Source: Chitinophaga pinensis
GTDB lineage: Bacteria; Bacteroidota; Bacteroidia; Flavobacteriales_D; Crocinitomicaceae
Direction: 5' to 3'
DNA: 64,000 nucleotides
NCBI GenBank assembly: GCA_945863605.1
Contig: CAMAZP010000013.1
Location: 1-64,000 of the forward strand
Shown here: positions 49,858 through 52,313 of the stretch, in pieces
How positions within the stretch are numbered: the stretch's first letter is position 1
Layout: each line of letters begins with the position of its first letter
Program-made: the position numbers and the translations under genes
The notes under the pieces: generated by a model
What the model saw: the letters and a program-made list of their open reading frames with translations, nothing else
Databases searched by the model: none
What the model was told of the DNA's origin: nothing

Positions 49858-51177
49858 TCATTGCAACACAATCTTTCTCACCGTCACCGTATTATTTTGC
49901 GGATCGATGAGGTGAACAAAATACAATCCGTTACCCGACCAAGTACTCAAATCCACATAGAATTGCGCTTGATTGATTAAGCTTTGAAATACCTGCTGAC
50001 CTGCGTTGTTTTCAATTTTTATCGTATAACCAGCCATTGCTGCAAAGTTTCCATTATCAATGGTGATATGATCACTTGCTGGGTTGGGATAAATTAAAAT
50101 AGTATTCTCGTTGTTTGGTGCTGGTAAGCTCAAGGTCGTGTTAATAATTAGTGTATCTGTAACTGTTGTTAAACAAGTATCTCCAATAATTATTTGTGCC
50201 ACATCTGATGTATCAATACAACCACCCGCGTTTACAATGGCTCTAAAAGGTTGATTGTAGTTGGATAATTGTACGTTTGAAACAGTTAATGTATTGGTTG
50301 CACCACCTAAATAGTTAGCATTTGAAGGAACATTTTGCCAACCAAAATTAGATGGATTGCTTTGCCATTGATACGTGCTCCCAGCTATTGCATTTACAGA
50401 AAACTGTGCGTTTGAACCAACAGGATTAACTGAATTGGTTGGTTGAGATGTGATTTCATTACCACAACTATTATACAAAGCAGAAATTTCTTGCGGAGTT
50501 AAAGCACGGTTCCAAAAACCAATATCGTCAAGTTTACCAAATAAATCTTGACCTGCTATTGAGCCAAACCAAACCAAGTCTCCCAATTGTGTGTTAAAAT
50601 TCTGGTTTCCATTATAATTGAAAAATTGGCTTGTTGTTATGTCTCCATTGATATAAAATTTAAATGAATTTGTTGTAGTTCCAAATGATGGTTGGTACGT
50701 AATAACTAAGTGATTCCACGTTCCAATAGGAGTAATAGGATTGTGTGCAACTTGGCTATTTGAATTATCAATAGTCGGAGAATGACCACCTTGCTGAGTT
50801 GGAAATAAATAAATATTCATTCTCGAACCTATTGATGTTAGACCATAATACATTAACCCTCCTTCACTTGTATTGGATAGATACCATAATGAAATCGACC
50901 TTGCATTTTGACCAAGTATTCCAGAATAGTTGGTTTGTATTTTTTGATTTCCTCCATTAAAACTATATGCCTTATTCGCTAATCCAAATCGATCCGTTGT
51001 CAACGTCGCTCCATTCACCGTCCCATTATTCCCATTCCCGCTCTCATCATTGGCATTTCCGTTAAACGGCCACCAACCCACTAAACCGTTTGAAGGAACA
51101 TAACTTGGTACTTGCGCCCAAAAATTTGCAGTTAAACTAAGCCCAACTGCAAAGGCTGTAAACATAACTTTTTTCAT
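49858..51177 (-). CDS. secreted LamG-domain protein with T9SS sorting domain
   Basis: A 439-residue protein. The signal peptide ends near NFWA-Q. A LamG/concanavalin-like domain (about 20-225) starts GLVGWWPFNGNANDESGNGN and includes SISLWYLS and DDIGFWNRALTPQEISALYN. An Ig-like stretch (QFSVNAIAGSTYQWQSNP) and a T9SS domain (ILIYPNPASDHITIDNGNF) follow. It probably binds a surface polysaccharide or matrix. The frame is open 15 codons upstream; the chosen ATG starts the signal peptide. A structured RNA region lies just upstream. Confidence 0.88.
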   Translation of the reverse strand: MKKVMFTAFAVGLSLTANFWAQVPSYVPSNGLVGWWPFNGNANDESGNGNNGTVNGATLTTDRFGLANKAYSFNGGNQKIQTNYSGILGQNARSISLWYLSNTSEGGLMYYGLTSIGSRMNIYLFPTQQGGHSPTIDNSNSQVAHNPITPIGTWNHLVITYQPSFGTTTNSFKFYINGDITTSQFFNYNGNQNFNTQLGDLVWFGSIAGQDLFGKLDDIGFWNRALTPQEISALYNSCGNEITSQPTNSVNPVGSNAQFSVNAIAGSTYQWQSNPSNFGWQNVPSNANYLGGATNTLTVSNVQLSNYNQPFRAIVNAGGCIDTSDVAQIIIGDTCLTTVTDTLIINTTLSLPAPNNENTILIYPNPASDHITIDNGNFAAMAGYTIKIENNAGQQVFQSLINQAQFYVDLSTWSGNGLYFVHLIDPQNNTVTVRKIVLQ

Positions 51178-51220
51178 TTTTAAAAGTTTTAGTTTCACCC
51201 GCCCCAAAGTGAGTTTATAC

Positions 51221-51425
51221 AAAAAAAGAAGCGTGGGACAGTTGCCTTACTCGTAACTGAGGGAGACGAAGCCCTATCCACAAAGTAAAGTAACGCCCAC
51301 GCCGTAGCATGAGCGTTTCACTTTAACTTCCCTGTGGATTTGAAATTTCGTCTTTTCAGTTACAGGTTGTTTAGCAAACGCTAATTTTTAATTCCAATAA
51401 AATCCGATATGCCGTTGCAAAAGGA
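51221..51425 (-). ncRNA. candidate structured RNA of about 200 nt (6S-like shape)
   Basis: A long nested self-complementary region. Stem pairs are 51253-51260 with 51356-51363, 51264-51270 with 51347-51353, 51276-51282 with 51333-51339 and 51294-51302 with 51307-51315 (tetraloop). An outer AGCGT/ACGCT pair runs straight into a run of seven T on the minus strand. Two apical pairs are G-U only if read on the minus strand, which fixes the strand. A promoter lies at the right distance. The rod-like shape and size resemble 6S RNA, but I see no decisive sequence signature. It could instead be a leader of the LamG gene or a palindromic repeat element. Confidence 0.5.
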
Positions 51426-51430
51426 TGGTA

Positions 51431-51460
51431 CAAAGTTAAGCGTCAAATTTTTAATACAAA
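51431..51460 (-). promoter_or_regulatory. promoter of the candidate structured RNA
   Basis: On the minus strand TTTG (51460-51457), 18 bases and TAACTTTG (51438-51431) closely match TTTG-N19-TAnnTTTG. The predicted start is near 51425, upstream of the first paired segment. Confidence 0.7.
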
Positions 51461-51578
51461 AACTTACAACTAAAATAAAAGAAAATTAGACCTAAAAAGC
51501 GCTGAATTCGATTGCAAAATTGAAAATAGTAGATTGAGTAACTAACCTTTTAAGAATTTAAAATGCTAATTTCGCACA

Positions 51579-52313
51579 ATGAATCAAAAAGAGTGGTTTG
51601 CGGAATGGTTTGACACGAGTTATTATCACCAGTTGTATCAAAACCGCAATGAAGAAGAAGCTGCTTTGTTCATTTCGAACTTATTGCAATTTCTGAATTT
51701 ACCAAAATCTTCCAAATTATTGGATTTAGCTTGCGGAAAAGGTCGTCATTCAGTTACCTTAAATTCCTTTGGTTACGAAGTTTTAGGTGTTGACTTGGCG
51801 GCGAATAGCATTCAAGAAGCTTCCAAATTTCAAAATGAATCGCTATCATTTGCAACTCACGATATGCGCGAAGTGATTGAAAACAAAACGTTTGATGCGA
51901 TTTTTAATCTTTTTACAAGTTTTGGATATTTCGACCACGAAAGTGAAAATGAAAAAGTGTGTGCCTCAATCGCAAAAATGCTCGCTCCAAAAGGAAAATT
52001 AATCATTGATTTTATGAATGCGGAGAAAGTGATTCAACAATTAGTGGCGGAAGAAGTGAAACAAGTTGGAGACTTGGCATTTAATCTAGAGCGACGTTAC
52101 GACGGAAAACACATCTACAAAGACATTCGTTTTCAAGATAATGGACAAGATTTTCATTTCACTGAACGTGTTCAAGCTTTGAAACTTGCCGATTTTACAC
52201 GTTTATTGCAAACTGATTTTAACATACTAGCAACTTTCGGAACATTTGATTTGCAAGCTTACTCACCAACAACCTCCGATCGATTAATCATTATAGCAGA
52301 GCGAAAAATATGA
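51579..52313 (+). CDS. class I SAM-dependent methyltransferase
   Basis: A 244-residue protein with motif I LLDLACGKGRHSVTLN, GVDLAANSIQEA and the DMREVIENKTFDAIFNLFTS segment. It starts EWFAEWFDTSYYHQLYQNRN, typical of a Bacteroidota methyltransferase group of unknown substrate. A TAATTTCG box lies about 11 bases upstream. It overlaps the ZIP transporter start by four bases. Confidence 0.86.
   Translation: MNQKEWFAEWFDTSYYHQLYQNRNEEEAALFISNLLQFLNLPKSSKLLDLACGKGRHSVTLNSFGYEVLGVDLAANSIQEASKFQNESLSFATHDMREVIENKTFDAIFNLFTSFGYFDHESENEKVCASIAKMLAPKGKLIIDFMNAEKVIQQLVAEEVKQVGDLAFNLERRYDGKHIYKDIRFQDNGQDFHFTERVQALKLADFTRLLQTDFNILATFGTFDLQAYSPTTSDRLIIIAERKI

Follow-up and report, generated by a model that had tools for sequence, protein, structure and literature searches.

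The RNA encoded on the minus strand at 51221-51460 of the analysed window (the whole 64-kb stretch of contig CAMAZP010000013.1, positions 1 to 64,000) is best read as the 5' leader of the downstream mRNA. It belongs to a well-supported family of leader RNAs across Bacteroidota. On balance, we favour a reading in which this leader acts in cis on the mRNA of the gene at 49858-51177 (minus strand), as one member of a phylum-wide family and as a two-state switch with attenuator logic. Computation establishes the promoter, the leader position and orientation, the helices, the co-variation of pairings 1:2, 2:3, and 3:4, and the U-tract. A terminated RNA of about 200 nt may exist as a by-product of the leader.

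The minus strand of 51221-51460 folds with a minimum free energy of -71.3 kcal/mol, whereas 200 dinucleotide shuffles average -50.0 (sd 4.5; z -4.74). This bears out the proposal of a structured minus-strand RNA in the sequence-only reading. As the plus strand reaches -64.6 kcal/mol (z -3.80, dinucleotide shuffles), the strand preference is real but modest. The nested complementary segments and poly-U end (51221-51230, UUCUUUUUUU) described earlier are also present. A scan of 50900-51800 for sigma-70 promoters found none; inspection of the minus strand reveals TTTG-N18-TAACTTTG (51460-51457; 51438-51431), which corresponds to the Bacteroidetes promoter pattern. TANNTTTG occurs within 100 nt upstream in 82 of 120 representative copies (shuffled expectation 10.5, sd 2.9, 30 rounds). 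The near-consensus promoter suggested before is therefore present and enriched family-wide, but it is of the Bacteroidetes type, not sigma-70. Transcription is expected to start near 51425, and the element is predicted to be transcribed from this upstream promoter in the sense of the downstream gene. The supposed complete unit of about 200 nt keeps its own promoter and its length to the U-tract, but the conserved structure and the gene continue beyond: in the source copy, the gene starts 44 nt past the U-tract, and hairpin H2 (51212-51195) lies 17 nt from the ATG. A terminator scan restricted to hairpin loops of 3-8 nt flagged two hairpins, the U-tract at 51221 not being among them.

Table 1. 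Parts of the source copy of the leader; positions are those of the window, and z values come from co-variation tests.
Feature	Position	Strand	Basis
TTTG, candidate -33 promoter element	51457..51460	-	sequence; Bacteroidetes consensus
TAACTTTG, candidate -7 promoter element (TAnnTTTG)	51431..51438	-	sequence; family-wide enrichment (82/120 vs 10.5)
Leader RNA element	51193..51390	-	R1 222.8 bits, E 8.7e-47; R2 210.2 bits, E 9.9e-41 (this copy is in both training alignments)
Strand 1 (a): AGCGUUU 51382-51376, CCUGU 51366-51362; partner strand 2	51362..51384	-	a-b z -13.7, -19.0
Core helix P2, 5' side GUAACUGA	51356..51363	-	z -31.6; 97.7% of cells paired
Core helix P2, 3' side UCAGUUAC	51253..51260	-	z -31.6; 97.7% of cells paired
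P3 5' side AGACGAA; partner mini-hairpin loop UUCGUCU 51270-51264	51347..51353	-	z -22.4
Mini-hairpin AGGG-CUUCGUCU-CCCU, loop forms P3 pseudoknot	51260..51275	-	a closing G and C invariant in 82/82 representatives
P4a 5' side AUCCACA	51333..51339	-	P4 z -27.1
P4a 3' side UGUGGAU	51276..51282	-	P4 z -27.1
Strand 2 (b): ACAGG 51335-51331, AAACGCU 51318-51312, to 51307; partner strand 1 or 3	51307..51335	-	a-b; b-c z -12.9
Strand 3 (c) GCGUGGGCGUUAC; partner strand 2 (rod) or strand 4 (putative terminator stem)	51290..51302	-	c-d z -21.4
Strand 4 (d) GGCAACUGUCCCACGC	51231..51246	-	c-d z -21.4; a-d -2.6, absent in conditional tests
U-tract after strand 4	51221..51230	-	UUUU at most 14 nt after strand 4 in 68/82 representatives
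Hairpin H2 preceding start codon; possible pairing of its loop GGGGC 51205-51201 with strand-4 GUCCC 51239-51235	51195..51212	-	z -6.2; -6.1 near-ORF
Gene behind the leader; LamG protein (439 aa), type IX secretion sorting tail	49858..51177	-	PF13385 8.3e-13, PF18962 1.7e-10

Three strong copies are encoded in the source genome (3.09 Mb, 63 contigs): the source copy and two on contig 26, which are 83 and 86% identical to it over the matched part and have different upstream genes. A MITE or dispersed repeat was rejected, as many near-identical copies would be expected. The sequence-only reading had named dispersed copies as a point against itself; copies do occur, but they are diverged leaders rather than a repeat element. 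A DNA search matched 10 of 86 genomes of the genus, while a pattern scan of GTDB contigs returned 21 stretches, all in MAGs, whose submitters' labels are inconsistent (Flavobacteriales, 'Lishizhenia', 'Chitinophaga', and 'Chryseobacterium'). Covariance model R1, built from 24 copies, matched 12 of the 86 genus genomes and 45 of 399 order genomes (20/70 genera); model R2, built from 62 copies, matched 50 of 240 family genomes (15/24 genera) and, across a phylum sample, 60 of 395 genomes (32/170 genera), with 1-6 copies per genome. Family and genus placements of the relatives are the labels of the search tool.

Specificity of the models was judged from antisense strands of true copies, which score up to 31 bits, so that only higher scores were accepted; for this reason three weak matches (L120, L121, and L122, 28.9-34.1 bits) were excluded and stand outside alignment A4. 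Duplicates or near-duplicates (L109, L113, L123, and L176) were excluded as well, L245-L260 are omitted from loci L201-L260, and several family and phylum matches also lie outside the alignment. Applied to 501,088 bases (100 loci, both strands) at E<=1e-5, R2 gave 100 matches, exactly one per locus. Rfam 15 (4227 families) yielded only a tRNA and no 6S in the whole 64-kb window at the gathering threshold. Within 51100-51600 at E<=10 there was again no 6S, and the best match was a snoRNA family (E 0.11, about half its cut-off). In 38 further relative loci searched at E<=0.5, no Rfam family matched the element; off the element, there were a sub-threshold whalefall-1 in L082 and tRNAs in L136 and L149. 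Judged by the window and these 38 loci, the family is large and apparently unlisted in Rfam 15.

The copy number, the patchy distribution, and a truncated remnant (L028) would suit a mobile or repeat element (a MITE or a single-strand recombination site) with hairpins that function at the DNA level. We consider this very improbable: the element has a promoter, a preferred orientation, and a regular gene spacing, its pseudoknot is kept by co-variation, and the source-genome copies share only 83-86% identity over the matched part. Moreover, 72,556 plasmid and 50,697 phage records yielded nothing when each collection was queried with the nucleotide sequence of one copy, an insensitive search for so diverse a family.

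The genomic position of the element is strongly biased. Of 162 aligned copies, a set that contains close relatives, 156 are followed by an ORF of at least 100 aa, which shares the strand of the element in 135; upstream neighbours are evenly oriented (66:66). An ORF starts within 60 nt after the element in 108 of 162 copies, with a sharp peak at 15-19 nt; this is an undercount, because the simple ORF caller overlooks the real neighbour of some copies (e.g., L003, L027, and L101). Many of the other 54 have their next gene at 100-700 nt. The usual order in 26 loci inspected is promoter, RNA, U-tract, small hairpin, and an ATG about 41-48 nt past the matched end. An independent small regulatory RNA, either 6S-like or acting by antisense, that ends at the U-tract and reaches downstream genes by leaky read-through would have the observed promoter of its own, stable rod, U-tract, and size of about 200 nt, and the 54 copies in which the simple caller found no ORF start within 60 nt would suit it. 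It is nevertheless an improbable explanation, given the orientation towards the downstream but not the upstream gene, the lack of a 6S match in the window, and a co-varying pairing past the U-tract in near-ORF copies.

Co-variation was assessed by comparing the duplex energy of each copy's own partner strands with that of partners taken from other copies. For 38 representatives of the 62 copies, z was -19.6 for P2, -14.3 for P3, -16.5 for P4, -7.6 for P5, and -9.0 for H2; strand 4 with the H2 loop gave -6.2, 3:4 gave -9.2, and P1 gave -0.7 (controls -1.5 and +1.2). The signals are larger for 82 representatives below 75% identity, found by R2 and absent from its training: -31.6 for P2, -22.4 for P3, -27.1 for P4, -14.8 for P5, and -4.3 for P1, while the five negative controls range from -1.4 to +0.1. 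H2 values are taken from the 38 representatives and from a window-pair scan, the H2 line of the 82 being spoilt by empty segments (mismatched mean +13.81). P3, whose pairing is absent from the models used for alignment, connects the internal loop with the loop of the mini-hairpin and thus constitutes a pseudoknot. A closing G and C of the mini-hairpin and two A of the GAAA are invariant in all 82 representatives. A small 5' hairpin within strand 1 (UAGC-loop-GCUA) gives a weak signal (z -3.6).

Additional helices emerged from a scan of 703 window pairs, in which H2 reached about -8.9 and one 1:4 window pair about -7.3. Strands 1 and 2 pair with z -13.7 and -19.0, strands 2 and 3 with -12.9, strands 3 and 4 with -21.4, and strands 1 and 4 with -2.6; the control pairings 1:3 (+0.4) and 2:4 (-0.2) are null. 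As three real pairings among four strands would yield the fourth indirectly, the tests were repeated within groups of identical core. Within groups sharing the strand-2 core (35 sequences), z was -6.8 for 3:4, -4.9 for 1:2, -4.5 for 2:3, and +0.4 for 1:4; within groups sharing the strand-1 core (42 sequences), it was -8.9 for 3:4, -7.6 for 1:2, and -0.5 for 1:4. Two mutually exclusive folds, with helices 1:2, 2:3, and 3:4 each kept by compensatory change, are thus well supported. The co-variation of 1:4 is probably mostly indirect. This pairing (P1), which plain folding predicts and both covariance models contain, has z -4.3 in the 82 representatives (0/2000 shuffles), with 82.0% of cells paired. 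The outer closing pair of the sequence-only reading, strand 1 with strand 4, accordingly fares worst of all the pairings (z -0.7 to -4.3, null in conditional tests). If 1:4 were real, a stem would precede the U-tract in both states.

Direct counts of base pairs on 100 aligned sequences, in an alignment fitted to the rod, point in the same direction. The fold 1:2+3:4 has 178 double-change cells versus 83.7 (sd 10.4; 0/500) and 82.4% of cells paired versus 75.0, and the rod has 790 versus 239.5 (sd 12.3; 0/500) and 93.4% versus 65.5. For the alternative helices, a separate column-wise co-variation analysis gave a weaker signal than the window test. Helix X2 of the 1:2 pairing has no more than 65.0% of its cells paired. 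In prefix folding, 1:2 forms in 82/82 representatives at the end of strand 2 (34-48/82 for mononucleotide-shuffled prefixes) and 2:3 in 82/82 at the end of P4. At the U-tract, 3:4 with at least 4 pairs appears in only 7/82, and the region of strand 4 and the 3' side of P2 pairs with that of strand 1 and the 5' side of P2 in 73/82, these regions overlapping P2. Structures with 3:4 enforced are a median of 9.9 kcal/mol worse than the rod (range 0-28, pseudoknots ignored). The rod being more stable, the OFF (terminator) state would need help from a signal or from kinetics.

In 68 of 82 representatives, UUUU stands no more than 14 nt behind strand 4; the other 14 lack it there. The 3:4 stem with this U-tract is a candidate intrinsic terminator. 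Strand 4 can also pair with the stretch past the U-tract: z is -6.1 (control -0.9) for the 44 near-ORF representatives, and for the 38 far from an ORF, pairing with downstream sequence gives -4.6, no better than the control of -4.3. The near-ORF pairing could mean that the leader controls translation or mRNA stability, strand 4 swapping between strand 3 and the H2 loop by the AUG, with the U-tract incidental. The clustering of ORF starts 15-19 nt after the element and the co-variation of H2 (-9.0 in the 38 representatives, about -8.9 in the window-pair scan) fit this explanation. We nonetheless consider it rather unlikely, as UUUU stands closely behind strand 4 in most representatives, and a start-codon H2 could not act directly in the many copies, among the 54 noted above, whose next gene is 100-700 nt away.

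Under the favoured attenuator-like reading, strand 1 would pair with strand 2 once both are transcribed. Strand 3 would then displace strand 1 from strand 2, giving the long rod (2:3 and the constant P2-P3-P4a core), and this state would permit read-through into the gene. A signal (ligand, protein, or RNA) might hold 1:2, e.g., via the conserved core with its GAAA and P3 pseudoknot. Strand 3 would then be free for strand 4, and the 3:4 stem with the U-tract would stop transcription. After read-through, the H2 loop just upstream of the AUG could capture strand 4 and may add control of translation. Termination by 3:4 and the U-tract, the balance set by a signal, and the direction of control are what we infer from sequence. 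A more tentative proposal, which we hold to be possible, is that the family constitutes a phylum-wide orphan riboswitch class, whose core with its invariant nucleotides would bind a small molecule or an envelope signal and so choose between 1:2+3:4 (terminator) and 2:3 (read-through). If so, one RNA design would retune the cell surface phylum-wide, ahead of TonB receptors, type IX-secreted surface proteins, ECF sigma factors, and response regulators. Little is known about how RNA controls the Bacteroidota envelope. A family of about 200 nt, found in 60 of 395 sampled genomes and with compensatory evidence for two alternative folds, would add a further level of regulation to the expression of surface proteins and TonB receptors.

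The downstream genes belong to many kinds. In 19 of the 26 inspected loci, the next gene encodes a LamG-type surface protein (judged by eye from a shared N-terminal motif, with Pfam matches for L001, L002, L003, and several more). Of the remaining loci, L014 precedes a protein with the same signal peptide and tail, three (L018, L020, and L026) lie before genes for other kinds of exported protein (by eye), L011 runs out at a contig edge, and L028 and L032 are a fragment and a divergent copy, respectively. The genes behind all three source-genome copies carry PF13385 and PF18962. A usable downstream ORF was available in 107 of 120 representatives, and the scan of these proteins found 16 with a TonB plug, 13 with LamG, 12 with a Por secretion tail, 3 response regulators, 3 LuxR, 2 with sigma-70 region 4, and 2 type III methylases; several others resemble lipoproteins by eye. 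No single pathway is common to these genes, which is unusual for a metabolite riboswitch.

Several loci have individual features. L028 (1501-1541) is a remnant in which the first part of a leader adjoins the 3' end of the gene for a surface protein directly, as a deletion of the intervening part would leave it. L108 and L109 are identical, near flanks included, in genomes placed in different families (G385 and G034), perhaps because a contig was binned into the wrong MAG. In L118 the leader lies directly before a type III restriction-modification methylase gene (PF12564, PF01555), and likewise in L100 (by likeness and the tally of 2/107); the downstream protein of L133 has an N-terminus similar, by eye, to type III methylases. 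In L079/L032 (G057 contig 99), a divergent leader directly precedes a gene whose vWA match is weak (PF13519, E 4.4e-4, below cut-off), followed by a PP2C-like gene (by eye), a pair reminiscent of TerY-type phosphorylation triads. The methylase genes and the vWA gene prompted the idea of a link to defence. A PADLOC search of the 107 downstream proteins gave 2 type III methylases and 3 weak CARF matches, so a general defence association was rejected.

The leader is often 112-135 nt from a divergent gene for a helix-turn-helix-like protein of about 100-150 aa (by eye; L146, L148, L203, L204, L219, L226, and L230, also L152 and L221). The genes flanking these leaders on the other side mostly encode SusC/TonB receptors; it is a sigma factor in L221, and no ORF was found in L152. 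This arrangement suggests a module of leader and helix-turn-helix-like gene with a dedicated transcription factor. Proteins of 61-67 aa have their start at the 3' end of the leader, or within it, in L111, L114, L119, L174, L180, and L184, and are possibly small regulators tied to the leader RNA; the one from L111, the only one of the six compared with Pfam, had no match there. In the window, the divergent neighbour (51579-52313, plus strand) is class I SAM methyltransferase-like and is followed by a ZIP-like metal transporter gene (both by eye).

A literature search found no description of the leader family, which is not proof of absence. A 2017 study reportedly describes 224 motifs. The main texts of PMC11109978 and PMC8632094 do not mention the genus and phylum names searched for. 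The motif table of the 2010 survey of Weinberg includes 6S-Flavo, Flavo-1, Bacteroid-trp, and others (PMC2864571); those of its motifs that are present in Rfam do not match the leader element. Flavo-1 (RF01705) is likewise a structured Bacteroidetes RNA of unknown function. According to the F. psychrophilum transcriptome study, its hits fall within 5' regions in sense or antisense indistinctly (PMC9723704), whereas the leader family is oriented; RF01705 had no match in the window or the 38 relative loci. The same study describes 64 structured 5' regions, some of them without an Rfam match (PMC9723704). Compared by description only, these share with the present family that they are structured 5' leaders in Flavobacteriaceae, several of them unmatched in Rfam.

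The likeness to 6S RNA proposed by the sequence-only reading extends to the length of about 200 nt, the long interrupted rod, and the own promoter, which 6S RNA shares, 6S-Flavo (RF01685) included. 6S RNA forms a long rod with a large open central bulge mimicking a promoter; it binds RNA polymerase and templates pRNA. The leader family differs in having no covariance match, multiple copies, a position and orientation before genes, and a central pseudoknot (P3 z -22.4) in place of the open bubble; on these four grounds, the 6S reading was rejected. RF00013 was searched within the window. Elsewhere, RF01685 was found in 0/1 source genome and in 1/100 order genomes (41.4 bits, below the 85-bit cut-off), and with 0/14 controls detected, this model is insensitive here.

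The closest parallels are trp-type transcription attenuators (1:2, 2:3, 3:4) and transcriptional riboswitches, whose 5' leaders likewise contain helices that exclude one another, with a U-tract behind the final one. In contrast to these systems, a constant pseudoknotted core joins two loops here, strand 4 can be captured by a fifth strand that precedes the start codon, and the downstream genes encode envelope proteins and regulators of many kinds.
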